DNA from: a virus
DNA: 55,501 bases
Virus record (IMG/VR): IMGVR_UViG_3300013110_000375
Span: 1 to 55,501 of that record
Direction: 5' to 3' (one strand)
Below are positions 1 through 47,009 of the stretch, piece after piece. Position 1 is the stretch's first letter. The number at the start of each line of letters is the position of its first letter. The notes under the pieces were generated by a model. It was not told the DNA's origin. It searched no databases and saw only the letters and a program-made list of their open reading frames with translations. The position numbers were made by a program, and so were the translations under genes.

Positions 1-874
1 ATTGCAAGTAACCTGTTCCAACCACTTCCCATTCCATATGGGTTTCGATGTATGAGTTTAAAGGCGCGTAAGGTACCATTGTGACCTTATGTCGCGCAAG
101 GTGTATGACCACTAGGCTATAGGCCGGAAACGCCGATAAATAAGCACCGGGGAAGGTTAAATAGCCTTGGTCTGGCCCAACACAGGCAGCATAACCAAGC
201 AGTTGGGTGCCCTGTTGATTATAAGCAGCTATCGTAACCATAAATACTCCACTTGAACCATATGGTGACCAAGTAAACGTCATTCCGCTCTTTAAAATGG
301 CCGCATCAAAAGCATATGATGGATCCACATAAAACATATTGTAAGGCTCGATAAAATCAAATCCCTCGATTGAGGTGAAAGTAAATTGTTCGTCATAAGC
401 TGATAATGAAACATCATGAATGGCATTTCTATCGTATTGTGTCTCATAAAGATATGCATAATGTTCTCCTATGCTTGATCGGGTTGCCACAAATGAATGG
501 ACAGGCCCTTCGACCGTAACCTCTGGCCCTATGTCGATTGGGTTGGTAGATGGAACTGTAACTAATAATTGATTTGTACATGTGCCCAATTCTGGGATCC
601 AACCTGTGTGGAAATCATTGATTGGCTCATGAAACTTTGTCTTGAACTCAACCAAGAGTTCTTGATTCTCTCCAACGCAAGCGGGACATGCCACTTGTCG
701 AAGATAGTAATTTATATATCCAGCGACACCCTCGATTGAAGGCTCGCTTGAGGGTTCCGAAGCAGGTTCGGGAGATACTTCAACAACAATATCTGATGTG
801 TCTTGTTTTTTGTCAGTGTAGCCAATGAGTCCAACTTCAGTCGAACATGCCAAGGCCAATATTAAACTAATCAT
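1..874 (-). CDS. Secreted lipoprotein, partial (3' end beyond the left edge)
   Basis: The frame is open from an ATG at 874 to base 1 with no stop, so at least 291 residues are coded and the C-terminus is missing. The N-terminus is a short lipoprotein signal, MISLILALAC, with the lipobox cysteine at residue 10, followed by a Ser/Glu/Pro-rich linker. A CPAC motif follows about 60 residues in. The rest is beta-type sequence rich in Gly, Tyr and Thr and I do not recognise a domain. A GGAG sits 5 bases before the ATG; an earlier ATG at 878 meets a stop after three codons. A consensus promoter lies just upstream at 891-918, so the gene starts its own transcript. Lipoproteins of this style are common in delta-proteobacterial hosts. 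A role at the host envelope is inferred from export only. Confidence 0.8.
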   Translation of the reverse strand, partial: MISLILALACSTEVGLIGYTDKKQDTSDIVVEVSPEPASEPSSEPSIEGVAGYINYYLRQVACPACVGENQELLVEFKTKFHEPINDFHTGWIPELGTCTNQLLVTVPSTNPIDIGPEVTVEGPVHSFVATRSSIGEHYAYLYETQYDRNAIHDVSLSAYDEQFTFTSIEGFDFIEPYNMFYVDPSYAFDAAILKSGMTFTWSPYGSSGVFMVTIAAYNQQGTQLLGYAACVGPDQGYLTFPGAYLSAFPAYSLVVIHLARHKVTMVPYAPLNSYIETHMEWEVVGTGYLQ

Positions 875-1878: not shown

Positions 1879-2199
1879 TCATTCAGGCTCCATTTCGGCC
1901 AAAAGAGGAAGTTCATGTTGGATTGCGGCTTGCTTTACTTGAGCGCATTTTGTTTCTGCTATTTCTCTGGTGTAAACTCCTGCTATTCCTTTTCCACTAT
2001 TATGTACATTTAGCATAATCCTTGTAGCTTCGGCTTTTGATTTACGAAATAGTTGTTCCAAGATCACAACTACAAACTCCATCGACGTATAATCATCATT
2101 ATGAAGAATGACTTTATACTTTTTTGGAGGTTCGATCTTATGTCTTTGTCTATCCTTTATACCGATATCTGACTGTTTATCCATTTTTTTCTTTGACAT
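1879..2199 (-). CDS. clpS: ClpS-like adaptor of the ClpAP protease
   Basis: 106 residues. After a charged N-terminal tail comes YKVILHNDDYTSMEFVV, the ClpS signature (the Asn-Asp pair and the following Met/Phe helix form the N-degron pocket), then a helix ending in RIMLNVH with a histidine, and GVYTREIAETKCAQV. These match the ClpS core along its length. Bacterial ClpS binds ClpA and delivers N-end-rule substrates. A phage copy could redirect host proteolysis; that is inference. The ATG overlaps the Smr gene stop by one base (TAATG), indicating a coupled operon. Confidence 0.92.
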   Translation of the reverse strand: MSKKKMDKQSDIGIKDRQRHKIEPPKKYKVILHNDDYTSMEFVVVILEQLFRKSKAEATRIMLNVHNSGKGIAGVYTREIAETKCAQVKQAAIQHELPLLAEMEPE

Positions 2200-3310: not shown

Positions 3311-4264
3311 TTAAAAAGAATCAAAATAAATAACTCCTGATACAACCGCAACACTGAGGGCCAGTCCTAACATAATTTTAAGGAAATCAGCAACCAACAT
3401 TGGGAAGATTACTTTAACCTCTTTATCTTTATTAAACATTCTATAGACAGCTAACTCTCGTCCAGCCAATAATCCAATAAACACCCATGTCGTACTCATA
3501 GGTATATCATTATAAATCTTGAAATACCACAGCACAAGAGCGTAGAATAAATCAATTAGACATGCTGATCGAATAAAGCGAGTTCCACTTTTAGAAAGAA
3601 CAATCTCTTGTATCTTCCCTCCGTTGGTCTTAAACAAGTGTGCAAGCCCAACAACAAGGATACCTATGATTCCAAGCATTATTGGAAGACTAACGCCTTC
3701 TCTTGGCAAATATACAAAGACGTTTGCAATATCGTGAGAAAGCCACATGTGCCACAAAAAGCCCGTAGAAAACCATTGTGCTATGGTCCAAAACTTTCTA
3801 TTGTTTTCTTTAACTTGTTCCTTCTCATTCAGGAAGCGAGACAATGCCGACCAAATAAGATAAGATGCTATGGCTGCAATTGCGTAGCCCATAGCTGATT
3901 TCATGATTATCTTCTCCAACACAAGTCCGCTTGAAAATGCACTCAAAGTTAATAATGTTGTAGAAACTGGTATACCATACCTCGTTAGTCCCAACAAAAG
4001 TGCAGGGGCCAGCGCATGATACCATTGAAATTGGCCCGGATGTGGTATTTCGTTTAGCCTTCCAAATGCCATGTCGCCTTGTAACCAGCCGTACATCAAA
4101 GTGGTGCCCAAGATGACCGATGTAAAAAGCCACATCCAATACCATTTAACTTTTTTACTATTGGAACTTATAAATGTTCCAAGAGTTTGGGCACTATCAT
4201 TTCCAATAACAGAATAAGCCGCCAAAAGAAAGCCAATGGTGCCAAATATTATTGATAAAGACAT
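3311..4264 (-). CDS. PiT-family inorganic phosphate permease
   Basis: 317 residues with about eight hydrophobic segments. Near the N-terminus is VIGNDSAQTLGTF, matching the PiT signature G-x-N-D-x-A; about residue 100 is GIPVSTTLL and near residue 270 PMSTTWVFIGLLAGREL, the second half of the inverted repeat that defines the family. PiT carriers import phosphate with protons or sodium. I chose the ATG at 4264 because GGAAGGGAG lies just upstream; the frame extends 43 codons further to 4393 but that stretch is not hydrophobic and lacks a ribosome site. A phage permease would support phosphate supply for DNA synthesis (inference). Confidence 0.78.
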   Translation of the reverse strand: MSLSIIFGTIGFLLAAYSVIGNDSAQTLGTFISSNSKKVKWYWMWLFTSVILGTTLMYGWLQGDMAFGRLNEIPHPGQFQWYHALAPALLLGLTRYGIPVSTTLLTLSAFSSGLVLEKIIMKSAMGYAIAAIASYLIWSALSRFLNEKEQVKENNRKFWTIAQWFSTGFLWHMWLSHDIANVFVYLPREGVSLPIMLGIIGILVVGLAHLFKTNGGKIQEIVLSKSGTRFIRSACLIDLFYALVLWYFKIYNDIPMSTTWVFIGLLAGRELAVYRMFNKDKEVKVIFPMLVADFLKIMLGLALSVAVVSGVIYFDSF

Positions 4265-4341
4265 TTTTTCTCCCTTCCTTTTAAATAGAAAAGAGTAATT
4301 AACTAATAACTTAAACTGTATAAATGGGACATCATTGTCAC

Positions 4342-4689
4342 TTATTTCATGAACACTTGTATCGCCAAAATAGCGCATGACAATATCAAGCAAAGCATTG
4401 TCTTTAAAGTAAACATGCTTTCATTCAAATGAAGCCAAGTCAGTATCGTAAATACAAAAATACCGCTCGTAAATCCTAAAAAACGACATGTCCACAATGC
4501 TTCAGCAGAGTCATAAATATTTTTTGTCCCAAACCAAAAGAAAAGTGAAACAGGAACAGAAAATATAATAGCTGAGAGAATGGCTTTACCTTCCCAAAAC
4601 TTCCAAACAAACTGGGAATTGAGTTGATACCATGCTAATGTTTGAGCGACAATAAAAAGTGTAAATCCATATACTATTTTTAAATCCAC
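4342..4689 (-). CDS. Four-helix membrane protein of unknown function
   Basis: 115 residues with about four hydrophobic segments (IVYGFTLFIVAQTLAWY, ILSAIIFSVPVSLFFWF, FTSGIFVFTILTWLHL, TMLCLILSCAILAIQVFM). I prefer a GTG start at 4689 with GAGGCGG upstream; an ATG at 4716 is possible but sits deeper inside the thymidine kinase gene and has no ribosome site. It overlaps that gene by 10 bases. Placement before the phosphate permease suggests a related membrane role, but no family is recognised. Confidence 0.65.
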   Translation of the reverse strand: MDLKIVYGFTLFIVAQTLAWYQLNSQFVWKFWEGKAILSAIIFSVPVSLFFWFGTKNIYDSAEALWTCRFLGFTSGIFVFTILTWLHLNESMFTLKTMLCLILSCAILAIQVFMK

Positions 4690-5260: not shown

Positions 5261-5288
5261 ATTATAACTTATTATTTGCGTTTGTCAA
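5261..5288 (-). promoter_or_regulatory. Sigma70-type promoter for the thymidine kinase operon
   Basis: TTGACA (5288-5283), 16-base spacer, TATAAT (5266-5261) on the minus strand, a perfect consensus, lying immediately after the stop of the VWA lipoprotein gene and 23 bases before the kinase ATG at 5237. Confidence 0.88.
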
Positions 5289-5290
5289 GT

Positions 5291-6880
5291 TTATTCTTCA
5301 ATTTCTTCTTCTTGGCATCCAAGGATGGCATAAGTAATTTCTATTATCTCTCCATCTTTAGGAGCATCAGCAGAATTAAAACTTACTTCATTGTTGTCGG
5401 CATTATACCACCAAGCCGTAGATGTCTGTCCTTCTATTTTAACCTCAATGGTATCTTCTATAGCTCCGTCATCACTTAATGAATAAGATAAAACAGGGAC
5501 AGAATTAAAAGCCATGGACTGTAGCTGCTGGCCCCAGTCGGCTGCACAAATAGAATAATTGGTTCCACCGAAATGATTTACAATATCATAGTATCCATCA
5601 CCAAACGAAGCATGCCTATTGTATGAACCATTATAATAAGAACACCCGGAAGGATAATCTCCAATAACAGAATGCGCGATGATCATTGATTTATCTGCTT
5701 TTAGGGTTTCAATATAATTTGCATAAGTTTGCCATGAATATGAATATCCATCCCTTTCATCTGAGACATACACTATTATTAAACTTGCATCTTGTCTTAA
5801 AAAAGCCGAACCCGGACCTGCATCACCACCAACCTGTAGTGCATCGTGTGACATGCGGATTCCCCTCTCAAAGCCAGAGCCGCTTGTTCCAACCTGAACT
5901 TGGGATGACAATTCGACCACTGGATCTGGTGTGCCGGGAGTGACTATTTGACCTCTAAAGTCAGGATCATCAGTTGTTATAACAGCTATTTGATAATCAG
6001 CGTTGAGAAGTGCAAAAGCAGACATAAAAGAATTCATGTTAATTGCAAGATTTTGTTGAAAGCTGTGCATTGAGCCGGAGTTGTCCACAACAAATAAAAT
6101 ATCAACTCTTCTAATCGAAGCTTGTTCAAAACTATCAGTTATAAATTCTGAATAGTCAGATGTTGCGGAGAGGTCAACGGTCACCATTGGATCAATAGGG
6201 TCGTTAGAATTGATATCGACCATAGCAACATCTGGTATTAGATCTTCAGGGATATATGGAACTTCGATTATTTCCATATCATTCGGTGGAACAATAAGAG
6301 GCAGATTAGGGGCGACAAGGGAGAAATCATTTGGAGGACTGATCCAAAAATCCAAACTATTAATTATTAAATCCATATTTCCAAGATTATTAATCTCTAG
6401 CAAAGTTACCTCCTCACAGCCAAGATAAACAGTTTCCAAATCTGACTCTAAAGGGTTAACATTAATAACTGGTGCGTCACCATAGCCATGAATGGGTATC
6501 TCCACAACTGGTTCATCGGGATCATTAGAAATAATATAAAGATATGCGCTCTTTTCTTCAAAGGTTTCTGGTTCATAATAAACATTAAACTCAACCTTTT
6601 CAGAATTTTCTAAATCATAAGTCACTGGTCGATCAAAAGTAAAGTTTGACTGCCCATAGATTCCAATATCATCTATCTCAAGTAATCCACCACCAGCATT
6701 AACAATAGTGACCAAATCTGCTAGACTTTCAACACCGGCTACAAGGTGACCATATTCAATTGATTCTGGGGAGACAACGATATTTGGAGCGGGGATTTCT
6801 GGGTCAACCTTCTCCACCTTGACTATTGTGTGATCACTACAGCCCATTAAAAAACAAAACAAAAACAATAACTTAAGCAT
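5291..6880 (-). CDS. Lipoprotein with ASH repeats and a von Willebrand A domain
   Basis: 529 residues. The signal MLKLLFLFCFLMGC has a lipobox with cysteine at residue 14. Two ASH-type (choice-of-anchor D) beta domains follow, at about residues 35-135 (ending IPIHGYGDAP) and 136-240 (with SNDPIDPMVTVDLSAT). A VWA domain starts near 255 with VDILFVVDNSGSMHSFQQ, which has the metal-binding DxSxS site intact. A tail near the end contains SYSLSDDGAIEDTIEV and finishes in acidic residues. Proteins of this build are frequent in Myxococcota-like bacteria. On a phage genome it may act at the host surface after infection, for example in adhesion or exclusion of other phages; this is inference. Confidence 0.88.
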   Translation of the reverse strand: MLKLLFLFCFLMGCSDHTIVKVEKVDPEIPAPNIVVSPESIEYGHLVAGVESLADLVTIVNAGGGLLEIDDIGIYGQSNFTFDRPVTYDLENSEKVEFNVYYEPETFEEKSAYLYIISNDPDEPVVEIPIHGYGDAPVINVNPLESDLETVYLGCEEVTLLEINNLGNMDLIINSLDFWISPPNDFSLVAPNLPLIVPPNDMEIIEVPYIPEDLIPDVAMVDINSNDPIDPMVTVDLSATSDYSEFITDSFEQASIRRVDILFVVDNSGSMHSFQQNLAINMNSFMSAFALLNADYQIAVITTDDPDFRGQIVTPGTPDPVVELSSQVQVGTSGSGFERGIRMSHDALQVGGDAGPGSAFLRQDASLIIVYVSDERDGYSYSWQTYANYIETLKADKSMIIAHSVIGDYPSGCSYYNGSYNRHASFGDGYYDIVNHFGGTNYSICAADWGQQLQSMAFNSVPVLSYSLSDDGAIEDTIEVKIEGQTSTAWWYNADNNEVSFNSADAPKDGEIIEITYAILGCQEEEIEE

Positions 6881-15422: not shown

Positions 15423-16382
15423 TTATCTTATGATATTTTTGAGAATATTCCATAAGTCCGTGAAATTTAAAGAACCTTGCCCATCTTCAAAAAGCATTTT
15501 TTTAAAATTTAGACCACTACCTAAACCTTCAAAATTGGCAAGGTTGTAGTTAATTGACTCTTTATTAATCAAAGAAAATGATGGGTCATATAATTGCATC
15601 AAATTGTAGTTTTGTTCCACTACGGTTCTCTGATTCAAAATATTCTTATGAATGACCATCTTCTTCTCTATTTTTTCGCATATTTCAAAGATTTCGTCTG
15701 AATCGACCTGTCGAGATTCCGAGAGGAATGAAAAATTTTTGGCGATGGTTTTTAACCCTACCCTGTCCACTCCTTTGAGGTTATCTGAGGGATCTCCCGC
15801 TATTGCCCTTGCCAATGCAAAGTTGTTGGGATGAATGCCGAACCTGTATGTTATCGATCCTTCTGTCTCCAACTCATCTTGGATTGGTCGATAGACAGCA
15901 ATGTTTTCATCACATAACTGAAAGAAGTCCTTATCACTTGATACTATAATCTTTTGCCAATCTTTATAATGATTGTGTTTTGCAACATAGGCGATTATAT
16001 CGTCGGCCTCAACGCCATCATAAGAAAGCTGCATAACAGGGAGTTCGTTCAAATATTCATGAAGTCGAACTTGCTGATAAATGCGATTCTGTTCTTGTTG
16101 TTTTGGGTTTAGTTCAACCATGCGGCGGTTAAAGCGAAGAGGTTTGCGACCAGCTTTGTAGTCCTTATTTTGAGACTTCTTTCTTTGAGAGCCGCCAATG
16201 CCGTCCCAAGCAATAATTACTTCATGGGGGCGGGTTTTCCTCATTAGTTTTTGAAACGATTTAAGAAACCCAATGGAGCCGCCAACGGGGATGCCATTAT
16301 TATCTAAAGTTGGATTAACAACATAGTTTCTTATAAAAAGATTTAATGCGTCAATTATTAATAATCTGTTTTTCTCGGTCAT
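15423..16382 (-). CDS. 5'-3' exonuclease / RNase H (FEN family)
   Basis: 319 residues. The PIN-like nuclease carries its acidic residues in LLIIDALNLF, AWDG, the arch RKPLR region, EADDIIAYV and SSDKDFFQL, followed by the H3TH element GDPSDNLKGVDRVGLKTI. Similar to T4 rnh and phage flap exonucleases that remove RNA primers. The short polymerase at 23808 lacks such a domain, so this gene can supply that activity. The ATG overlaps the purA stop as ATGA. Confidence 0.9.
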   Translation of the reverse strand: MTEKNRLLIIDALNLFIRNYVVNPTLDNNGIPVGGSIGFLKSFQKLMRKTRPHEVIIAWDGIGGSQRKKSQNKDYKAGRKPLRFNRRMVELNPKQQEQNRIYQQVRLHEYLNELPVMQLSYDGVEADDIIAYVAKHNHYKDWQKIIVSSDKDFFQLCDENIAVYRPIQDELETEGSITYRFGIHPNNFALARAIAGDPSDNLKGVDRVGLKTIAKNFSFLSESRQVDSDEIFEICEKIEKKMVIHKNILNQRTVVEQNYNLMQLYDPSFSLINKESINYNLANFEGLGSGLNFKKMLFEDGQGSLNFTDLWNILKNIIR

Positions 16383-17383
16383 ATTTTCTCCGGAGAGTTT
16401 GAAAGGAATACATGTTTAACAAACGAGTTAGATCTTCCTATTTGATCTGTTATAAAGCTTGTCATTTTGTCATAGGAGTCAAATGTTTTAAGTTCGTTAT
16501 TGTGCTTCAATTTATATATTCCAAGTTTTCTTATAATATCACATTTGTTAACAACCAAATGAGTGGTCCCTGTTTGTCTCACGGCCTCAATCATCATGTC
16601 CAGATTGAGCCAGTTACAGTGTCTTCGTCTGCCCGTTGTAACGCCGAATTCTTGCCCTATATCGCCCAAGGCGGTCAAATCCGGGTCTTTAAAGAGTTCA
16701 TCGGGGAACAATGGGTCCACACCAGAACGGGTGTCATATATCTTAGATATGCCCCATATATGGCGAATCTTTTGCGGGGGAAAACCAAGGGAACAAGCAC
16801 CATACGGCAATGTTGTCGATGACGTTACATAGGGATAGTTGCCTTGATCAACATCAAGGTAATAGCCTTGGGCCCCTTCACACAATATTCGACCAGATAG
16901 TTTTTCATCCCAAAGTAATTTTGAAGGGAGAATGTCTCTTGCCAATTGGCCTGTTCTTGCCATTTTATCGGCATAACATGGTGCGATTCCCTTTGATGTT
17001 GTTCCAAGTTTTTTTGCTAAACTTTTCTTATCTTTATTAATATGTTTATCGGTTACAATATGTGCCCTTGGTGATACTTTAACAAGAGTTCTATCAAAAC
17101 CGCTTCTCTCAAGGTAATCTAACTCTTCTATTAATGAATCAGGATGGACCACGCACTGTGGACCAATAATAGATTTAATCCCGTGGAAAACCCCACTAGG
17201 AACCAGATGAGTTTTATATTTTTTTCCTCTGAGGAAGACGGTATGTCCTGCATTATTTCCCCCTGCCCAACGACATACATAGTCGTAGTTTCCTTTTTTG
17301 GTCAAATGGGAAGTTACCTTTCCTTTTCCTTCGTCTCCCCATGAAATTCCGAACACAACATCAACGTATTTAATTTCTTTCAT
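16379..17383 (-). CDS. purA: Adenylosuccinate synthetase, short PurA/PurZ-like form
   Basis: 334 residues, about 100 shorter than E. coli PurA and close in size to archaeal PurA and to phage PurZ. The P-loop GISWGDEGKGK keeps the catalytic Asp at residue 17, which the PurZ enzymes of 2-aminoadenine phages replace. GNNAGHT keeps the catalytic His, GVTTGRRRHCNWLN forms the aspartate loop, and VNKCDI is the GTP-base motif. So the chemistry seen is that of PurA, making adenylosuccinate from IMP. Substrate on dGMP cannot be excluded from sequence alone. The ATG at 17383 follows GGAGG and a consensus promoter. Confidence 0.88.
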   Translation of the reverse strand: MKEIKYVDVVFGISWGDEGKGKVTSHLTKKGNYDYVCRWAGGNNAGHTVFLRGKKYKTHLVPSGVFHGIKSIIGPQCVVHPDSLIEELDYLERSGFDRTLVKVSPRAHIVTDKHINKDKKSLAKKLGTTSKGIAPCYADKMARTGQLARDILPSKLLWDEKLSGRILCEGAQGYYLDVDQGNYPYVTSSTTLPYGACSLGFPPQKIRHIWGISKIYDTRSGVDPLFPDELFKDPDLTALGDIGQEFGVTTGRRRHCNWLNLDMMIEAVRQTGTTHLVVNKCDIIRKLGIYKLKHNNELKTFDSYDKMTSFITDQIGRSNSFVKHVFLSNSPEKI

Positions 17384-17404
17384 ATGGACCTCCGTTGCTT
17401 CTAT

Positions 17405-17432
17405 ATTATAACATATTCTCACGATTTGTCAA
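17405..17432 (-). promoter_or_regulatory. Sigma70-type promoter for purA-exonuclease
   Basis: TTGACA (17432-17427), 16-base spacer, TATAAT (17410-17405) on the minus strand, perfect in both boxes. It follows the terminator at 17435-17460 by a few bases, which separates this transcript from uvsX. Confidence 0.92.
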
Positions 17433-20219: not shown

Positions 20220-20328
20220 TTATTCAGCTTGGACTGCTGAATCTTGATCTTCTGATTGCACTTCTCCAGTGTCTTCAGATTTATCGCCACAAGCTATAAG
20301 CATTGCAGCTAACACAAAATACTTCATG
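20220..20328 (-). pseudogene. Small lipoprotein gene with an apparent one-base frameshift
   Basis: From ATG 20328 the frame reads MKYFVLAAMLIACGDKI and stops at 20275. The lipobox LIAC is clear and GGAGGA precedes the ATG. At a run of four A (20283-20280) a shift of one base would continue as SEDTGEVQSEDQDSAVQAE to a stop at 20220, an acidic tail typical of small lipoproteins of this type. Either a base was inserted in the run, the assembly has an error, or the ribosome shifts here. Element B lies in the leader. Confidence 0.6.
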
Positions 20329-45182: not shown

Positions 45183-47009
45183 TTAGCTAGCTCCACCTTC
45201 ACCAAGAAGTCCTCGGACGATAACAAGGCCGTACATATCAGCACGAACCATCTTCTTACCGTAACGGGTCATGACACCCTTACGAGGCACGAAGTCCTCA
45301 GTTCCGAAGATCGTTGGAGTGACTTGGAGAGGCACATAAGGTGCATACACATAGCCACTTTCAAGGAAAGAGTTTCCTTTACGACCAACAAGAATAACAT
45401 TTCGATGGAAATAAGGATCAACGATAACATCAAACTTGCGGCTCAAAGAACCAACTTTTTCTGCTCCAATAACGCCTTTATCGGCATCAGCGGTAACATT
45501 AGCGCGGAACCCAGAGGTGAACTCAAGAATGTTAGCAACTTCAGGAGAGCAAACAACAAAGTTTGCGCCACCACGAAGCGTCTTACGATGAATTTGAGCG
45601 GAAATATCATTGATAGTTTCGATCAAGGTTTCATACCATTCACTAACCGTTCCAGTGAAGTCAGGGGCAGCAGCAGTTGCGCCCAATTCCAAACCAGTTT
45701 GGCGGTTCACAAAAAGTCCCGGTGAACGAGACCAATAGTATTTTCCAGCAGTTGCACCGTTAACGAGATCAGCAAGAATCTCACGATCAATTTCAAGAGC
45801 GATTTGCTCAGAAAGGATCGAGGTCAACTCAACTTCAGCATCCAAGTTATGATAAGCATTCAAGTCTTGACCCAATTCTGGAGTCCACTTGGCTTTCAAT
45901 TTCTTGGTTTGTGCCGTGATAGCAATACTATCGACCTTGATGTCGATTTCTGGGATTGCTGCTTCGCCTTCAAGGCCCCACTCAGGTGACCCAACGACAG
46001 CACCAAGAGCACCACCAGCAATCAGATCATCCCTGATTGGAAATTCCAATAATCCAGCACCCAAGTCAGCGGTTCCCGCTGCTGCTGAAGTCCGTGCAGC
46101 CTGAACGCCATTCGCGGCAGGTTGCATCAAAACAAAACGAATTGCTGCTTCTGACAAAGCAGTATCAGCAGCGGCAACTCTTGTAGTCAAACGACGAACT
46201 TGAGTTGTGGCGGCATCAGCTTCATTATTCCATGCAGTATTACCGTCACCAATGGTAAAGGCAGAAAGGTTGTTGGTATCAGCCGGACTTCCACCGTGAG
46301 AAGCAGTAAAACAAGAAATGCCGACATCGACAACGAGAACACCTGTGCCATCAGTAATAGCCAACAAGTCAGGGTCATACTGAATGTGTTTTGCGGCATC
46401 TTCGCTAACTGCACCATTAAGGTCGAAGGCCCTTTGGCACTTAATATTGTTCACATGAATAACGAGGTTTGAGCCAGTTGGGGATGCATAAGCATAACCG
46501 GAAGCACCAGCGCGAATAGGGCCTCCACCGGATTCAATACCGCGAGCATCAACAAGACTCACCCCATCAATGATGTCTTTACCGACATCACTAGTACCGT
46601 AAATTGACTCGGTGCCGCCCATGGTGTTGCCAAAGCGGTCTGCTGTCGTTGCGGAACCTCCAAGTTCATCGCCAAATACGAAGTCAAGGAAGAAAATGAG
46701 ACCTGATGGAAGGCTCATTGGTTGAACGCTAACAAGATCGTTAGCAATAAGTCCAGCGAATACTCGACGGACAATTGGGAAAGCAACAGCAGCAAAACCT
46801 TCGACATCGCCGCCAAGTCCCATAGAAGAAGCCTCACGAAGAAGCTCCTTGGCTTGATTTTCCAAGAGACGAGCCATAGTAGACTGTTCTCGTTGTGTTT
46901 GAAGACCTTCAAGTAAGCCGGTTGCTGACCATTTATTAAGAAGAGCTTCGCCTTCTTTAGCCATGTCGCGGTTTACAATGCCTTCACTAAGTGTTTCTAT
47001 AATAGACAT
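45183..47009 (-). CDS. Major capsid protein (gp23-like)
   Basis: 608 residues. FPIVRRVFAGLIANDLVSVQ with PMSLPSGLIFFLDFVFG near residue 85 and VYAPYVPLQVTPTIFGTEDF with TRYGKKMVRADMYGLVIVRG at the end are gp23 signatures. The HK97-fold shell protein forms hexamers; the N-terminal part is probably cleaved by a prohead protease, which is not in the window. GGAGG lies before the ATG, and the gp22-like gene is 24 bases upstream in the same transcript. Confidence 0.94.
   Translation of the reverse strand: MSIIETLSEGIVNRDMAKEGEALLNKWSATGLLEGLQTQREQSTMARLLENQAKELLREASSMGLGGDVEGFAAVAFPIVRRVFAGLIANDLVSVQPMSLPSGLIFFLDFVFGDELGGSATTADRFGNTMGGTESIYGTSDVGKDIIDGVSLVDARGIESGGGPIRAGASGYAYASPTGSNLVIHVNNIKCQRAFDLNGAVSEDAAKHIQYDPDLLAITDGTGVLVVDVGISCFTASHGGSPADTNNLSAFTIGDGNTAWNNEADAATTQVRRLTTRVAAADTALSEAAIRFVLMQPAANGVQAARTSAAAGTADLGAGLLEFPIRDDLIAGGALGAVVGSPEWGLEGEAAIPEIDIKVDSIAITAQTKKLKAKWTPELGQDLNAYHNLDAEVELTSILSEQIALEIDREILADLVNGATAGKYYWSRSPGLFVNRQTGLELGATAAAPDFTGTVSEWYETLIETINDISAQIHRKTLRGGANFVVCSPEVANILEFTSGFRANVTADADKGVIGAEKVGSLSRKFDVIVDPYFHRNVILVGRKGNSFLESGYVYAPYVPLQVTPTIFGTEDFVPRKGVMTRYGKKMVRADMYGLVIVRGLLGEGGAS

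Follow-up and report, generated by a model that had tools for sequence, protein, structure and literature searches.

A T4-like phage encodes a 529-aa lipoprotein that is composed of a signal peptide, two ASH domains, a VWA domain with a complete metal-ion-dependent adhesion site (MIDAS), and a C-terminal beta region. The initial annotation had placed a lipoprotein with ASH repeats and an intact VWA metal site at positions 5291-6880 of the minus strand, and the lipobox, the ASH and VWA domains, and the MIDAS are all confirmed here. We infer that the protein is expressed and located at the surface, and hold the chances to be even that it is an exported, lipid-anchored protein of the cell surface or outer membrane which remodels the infected cell and was derived from a host long ago. 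A role at the infected-cell surface is the best reading because of the lipidation, the ligand-binding site, and the neighboring genes.

Phage and gene content

The window (the whole stretch of DNA that was analyzed, 55,501 nucleotides) is a 55.5-kb virus record with a GC content of 39%, and its main genes all lie on the minus strand. It is assigned to a T4-like myovirus on account of the gp23-like capsid protein (Table 1), the tail genes (sheath, tube, and baseplate hub), UvsX, a DnaB-type helicase, and a single-strand binding protein. The large phages that carry the lipoprotein family are apparently marine, according to our reading of the collection. The window also comprises an adenylosuccinate synthetase gene (16379-17422, minus strand) of the phrog_1211 family ('2-aminooxy adenylosuccinate synthetase'), in which the Asp of the GDEGKG motif is retained, a gene for a ClpS adaptor (1879-2199, minus strand; 56% identity to ClpS of the relative G002), and a PHO4-like phosphate transporter gene (3311-4393, minus strand), a gene similar to which is found near the VWA lipoprotein gene in L229.

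Table 1. Positions of the lipoprotein genes, their domains, and associated features in the window.
Feature	Position	Strand	Evidence
Second lipoprotein gene, 291 aa, only the stop codon missing at the window edge	2..874	-	Homologues in G001 and G002; 48/71 genomes of one class
Predicted sigma-70-type promoter (TTGACA-16-TATAAT) between the lipoprotein and thymidine kinase genes	5261..5288	-	12/12 consensus positions
Lipoprotein gene, 529 aa (signal peptide, 2 ASH domains, VWA, C-terminal beta region)	5291..6880	-	Open ORF; full-length homologues in relatives
C-terminal small beta region, GWxYxxxxNxVxF-type motif (residues ~463-522)	5315..5494	-	Alignments; model strands
VWA domain (residues ~255-460)	5501..6118	-	VWA_2; partial matches to NF052240 and CglD; model
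MIDAS loop 3, acidic residues D374-E375	5756..5761	-	Invariant in 28/28 phage rows
MIDAS loop 1, DNSGS (residues 266-270)	6071..6085	-	Same D, S, S in all 28 phage rows
ASH / choice-of-anchor D domain 2 (residues ~137-243)	6152..6472	-	NF012200, second stretch; Pfam HYDIN-Ig and ASH, weak; profile to PDB
ASH / choice-of-anchor D domain 1 (residues ~32-135)	6476..6787	-	NF012200; model strands; Foldseek to HYDIN/CEP192
Signal peptide and lipobox LMGC	6839..6880	-	Lipid-bearing Cys14 at 6839-6841, Ser at +2; sequence
Third lipoprotein gene, 35 aa, lipobox MLIAC, intact	20220..20327	-	Sequence
gp23-like major capsid protein	45183..47009	-	phrog_138, E 1e-69; relatives

Domain structure of the 529-aa lipoprotein

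The N-terminus of the ORF is MLKLLFLFCFLMGCSDHT, and the precursor starts with MLKLLFLFCFLMGC followed by SDHT. Under the E. coli rule, the serine after the lipobox is compatible with sorting of the lipidated protein, as predicted from its sequence, to the outer membrane. A hydrophobic stretch followed by a lipobox with an invariant cysteine, the hallmark of a bacterial lipoprotein, is found in all 28 phage rows of the alignment, and the cysteine is conserved in 56/60 of all rows. The NCBIfam model NF012200 (choice_anch_D) matches the protein in two stretches with E 3e-14 and 53.3 bits, above its curated cut-off of 45 bits, and in the comparison of the family profile with solved structures the ASH domains of HYDIN, FAP65, and CEP192 were matched (best E 1e-62). 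The Pfam VWA_2 match (24.8 bits, E 3.5e-5) is slightly below the gathering score of 27 bits; the identity of the VWA domain is upheld despite this, by the agreement of the motif, the alignment, the partial matches to NCBIfam VWA models, and the predicted fold. In the C-terminal beta region, W490 and C522 are invariant among the phage rows.

The AlphaFold2 model, calculated with 60 sequences, has a mean pLDDT of 92.8 and a pTM of 0.67, so the domains are confident and their mutual arrangement is less so. In the Foldseek search with this model the ASH domains rank first and integrin beta headpieces next. In the headpiece, a VWA-type domain is joined to Ig-like domains, as in the phage protein (E ~1e-8); the TM-score is low (~0.3) and the likeness is one of fold.

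The MIDAS site

A MIDAS requires the DXSXS motif, a threonine in loop 2, and an acidic residue in loop 3. All of them are present in the VWA domain, as D266-N-S268-G-S270, T302/T303, and S373-D374-E375. The 28 aligned class I phage proteins (see below) are identical at D266, S268, S270, T302, T303, S373, D374, E375, and Cys14, which excludes chance for the lipid-bearing cysteine and the MIDAS residues. Four further cysteines are also identical in 28/28. The other 27 proteins are only 31-44% identical to that of the window, and the lipid, MIDAS, and cysteine positions are therefore under selection. We propose that the VWA domain binds a ligand in a metal-dependent manner through the MIDAS, as predicted from the residues present.

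The same conservation bears on another explanation, in which the protein would belong to the virion, e.g. as a fibre or as a decoration protein, and its hydrophobic N-terminus would be something other than a lipoprotein signal. ASH and VWA domains do occur in annotated phage proteins, glycoside hydrolases included. We nevertheless regard this as very improbable, as all 28 class I rows retain the cysteine of the lipobox despite great divergence, nearly all of the shorter class II proteins have a lipobox as well, and the gene is located outside of the structural module, often with exported proteins adjacent.

Distribution in phages

The profile scan of IMG/VR gave 110 relatives of the 529-aa lipoprotein. 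Full-length homologues are encoded by the two closest of the long phages (127 and 187 kb; 36-37% identity) and by three additional contigs of 49-192 kb. The best 80 of the 110 relatives form two classes of lipoproteins, and the lipobox is present in nearly all of them: class I (ASH-ASH-VWA, ~500-550 aa, two ASH domains) is close to the window protein, and class II (VWA only, ~310-355 aa) is distant, with a charged linker replacing the ASH domains. A T4-like capsid gene is found in 20 of the 50 records tested, the contigs of which are possibly partial. The phage family is an old separate phage clade that is widespread in large viral contigs. No match was obtained by tblastn with three family members against 50,697 deposited phage records, and the clade may thus point to an overlooked means by which phages influence the infected-cell surface. 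Single-sequence pattern scans of viral and genome contigs also gave zero matches, a misleading absence, since relatives were found by the profile scans.

In one phage, a second and shorter VWA lipoprotein gene is found immediately before the ASH-ASH-VWA gene (L204:3359-4240). The class II proteins (L240 4773-5807 and other class II loci) have a VEVEVE-type linker and acidic tails of the DTGDTG type; DTG-rich stretches that resemble these tails also occur in the candidate host class described below, among its lipoproteins (e.g. L283).

Gene neighborhood

Within 5 kb of the lipoprotein gene, four families recur among the best 80 of the 110 phage loci, some of which are near-copies of each other and are included in all the counts. 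Trypsin-like proteases were found at 31 loci, Nudix-type proteins at 27, thioredoxin-fold lipoproteins at 23, and zincins that have a membrane stretch at the N-terminus at 15. These families were confirmed by Pfam, except for Nudix, which was assigned from sequence. In 48 of the 80 loci, the lipoprotein gene directly adjoins a zincin, a trypsin-like protease, or a thioredoxin-fold lipoprotein gene. The zincin follows directly on the same strand in 13/35 class I loci, with gaps of -18 to +2 bases; the relative G002 has an adjacent zincin. The trypsin-like protease is directly adjacent on the same strand in 21/80 loci (6/35 of class I and 15/45 of class II), and the thioredoxin-fold lipoprotein in 14/80 (4/35 and 10/45, respectively). 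No member of the neighbor families was found in the 831 kb screened around capsid genes, a control that is biased because these regions are structural.

Neighbors such as exported proteases and thioredoxin-fold lipoproteins fit a role in the envelope, and phage-borne MIDAS lipoproteins beside exported-protease genes suggest a rebuilding of the infected-cell surface by the phage. Somewhat more tentatively than for the single protein, we suggest that a cassette for envelope remodeling is shared among large phages whose hosts are uncultured deltaproteobacteria. It would combine a MIDAS lipoprotein of host origin with an exported protease, either a zincin or a trypsin-like one, and with a lipoprotein of thioredoxin fold, which may jointly refashion or guard the infected-cell surface. 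Two observations count against the remodeling role: the position of the lipoprotein gene varies between relatives, and in the window the gene downstream is for a thymidine kinase, with the protease and thioredoxin-fold neighbors absent.

The overlapping or abutting zincin genes and the adjacent trypsin-like proteases would also agree with an egress module that breaks the envelope, in which the metal-dependent VWA domain would hold or target the exported proteases while they loosen the surface layer before lysis. We judge it unlikely. In ~40% of the 80 loci, the window among them, none of the three neighbors is directly adjacent, the 35-aa lipoprotein at 20220-20327 is better sized for a lysis accessory, and we know of no lysis system with a VWA lipoprotein.

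Bacterial relatives and candidate host

In the genome scan, relatives of the VWA lipoprotein were found mostly in Myxococcota and Bdellovibrionota. The initial annotation had considered the domain order typical of predatory or social deltaproteobacteria and not of phages; the first part agrees with this distribution (and with one class in which the family occurs in 71/71 genomes), but the second does not hold, given its spread in large viral contigs. Bacterial relatives had also been expected to name the host lineage, and they do indicate one deltaproteobacterial class as the best candidate. A metagenome-assembled genome of this class, JAUXQH01 (8.1 Mb), encodes relatives of the VWA lipoprotein as well as of ORF 2-874. 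The GTDB class to which it belongs is uncultured and, by RpoB, a separate lineage among the deltaproteobacteria. The ASH-VWA family is present in 71/71 of its genomes, mostly in multiple copies, and the 2-874 family in 48/71. The latter gave 38 matches in a phylum sample of 284 genomes, every one in the JAUXQH01 class, and 0/78 in Myxococcia; 68 of the same 78 Myxococcia genomes match the VWA profile, more weakly and mostly within proteins of ~1000 aa. Taken together, the two lipoprotein families of the window offer a host-lineage marker for T4-like phages of unknown host.

The ASH-ASH-VWA lipoproteins of the JAUXQH01 class (also of VGRE01) are collinear with the phage protein over the full length, with identities up to 38-39%, and share with it the lipobox, the C-terminal region, and the four cysteines. 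They differ in the MIDAS motif, which is mostly DNSCSM or DQSCSM in those looked at and DNSGSM in the phage protein, and, unlike the phage, their genomes have many paralogues and a GC content of 60-72%. In the full-length tree, which is unrooted, the 30 phage proteins of class I group together as a single clade (100/100) that adjoins one paralogue group of the JAUXQH01 class. This position fits a single old transfer from that class or its kin, the direction of which we infer. The distance to the GC content of the phage, 39%, is a serious objection to the class as host today, and another lineage may now fill this place.

The best match in the genome scan, a 306-kb contig (L113, NHDW01000006.1) binned as Methylococcaceae TMED69, was dropped as host evidence. 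It encodes a T4-type capsid protein and a tail-fibre-like neighbor, and is therefore probably a misbinned phage.

Comparison with characterized lipoproteins and proposed function

Metal-dependent adhesin lipoproteins serve bacterial predation, gliding, and cell contact. The closest characterized relatives of the 529-aa lipoprotein are the MIDAS adhesins of Bdellovibrio and CglD of Myxococcus. Bd0875 of Bdellovibrio is a lipoprotein with a VWA domain and a MIDAS, found at the predator-prey junction, and its MIDAS aspartate is required (PMC11003981). With these adhesins (Bd0875, Bd1483; NF052240) the phage protein has in common the lipobox, the DXSXS MIDAS of the VWA domain, the acidic residue of loop 3, and a small beta region with a conserved aromatic residue after the VWA domain. 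The class II phage proteins resemble them in length and order, and the window protein has two extra ASH domains. In the NF052240 layout, a lipobox is followed by a VWA domain flanked by N- and C-terminal parts of a beta domain, and of these the lipobox and the C-terminal beta strands are present in the 529-aa protein. In the case of CglD (NF033765), the adventurous gliding motility lipoprotein, the VWA domain aligns with that of the phage (E 2e-8), but the model has 1124 positions and another domain order.

These likenesses, together with the integrin beta headpieces among the fold matches, would allow the protein to be a cell-cell adhesin of the Bd0875 type, by which infected cells stick to neighbors or prey, so that the progeny find hosts or aggregation is altered. 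It seems to us improbable, since the scores of the whole protein are far under the equivalog cut-offs (34 against 700 bits for NF052240, 32.3 against 400 bits for NF033765) and the function in Bdellovibrio is tied to a cap region particular to Bd0875.

For the preferred role, remodeling of the infected-cell surface, the following course is envisaged. The phage lineage would long ago have acquired the gene from a deltaproteobacterial host lineage, in which such surface lipoproteins form a large family of paralogues. The gene would now be circulating among large phages, in many cases next to genes for exported proteases and thioredoxin-fold lipoproteins. The infected cell would make and export the lipid-anchored protein to the surface or outer membrane, where the two Ig-like ASH domains would lift the VWA domain, and the latter would bind its ligand via the MIDAS. 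The infected-cell surface would thereby be altered, with superinfection exclusion or receptor masking as the first choice of purpose, and blocking or imitating the host's own adhesins as the second. The initial annotation had put forward surface change, a block to superinfection, and cell contact as possible effects.

Phage lipoproteins that block superinfection are T5 Llp (PMC9586334) and Rtp45 (PMC12685063). Llp, Cor, and Rtp45 are phage-encoded lipoproteins like the 529-aa protein, and a similar role may be suggested by analogy. Unlike it, they are of ~6-8 kDa, act at the periplasmic face of the receptor, and are without VWA or ASH domains; the size of the window protein, 529 aa, thus counts against the exclusion role. 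None of the lipoproteins of the window was assigned to a defence family by PADLOC.

The two other lipoproteins

The initial annotation had counted at least three lipoprotein genes in the phage, and all three (5291-6880, 2-874, and 20220-20327) were found. Two of them had been described as partial or broken, and this does not stand. The ORF at 2-874, taken as partial, is complete except for the stop codon, as its homologues terminate at the same residue. The gene at 20220, taken as broken, is an intact ORF that begins with MKYFVLAAMLIACGDKSEDTGE and is preceded by a strong Shine-Dalgarno sequence (GGAGGAG). Its 35-aa product is in the size range of small phage lipoproteins and is nearer to the known exclusion lipoproteins than the 529-aa protein.
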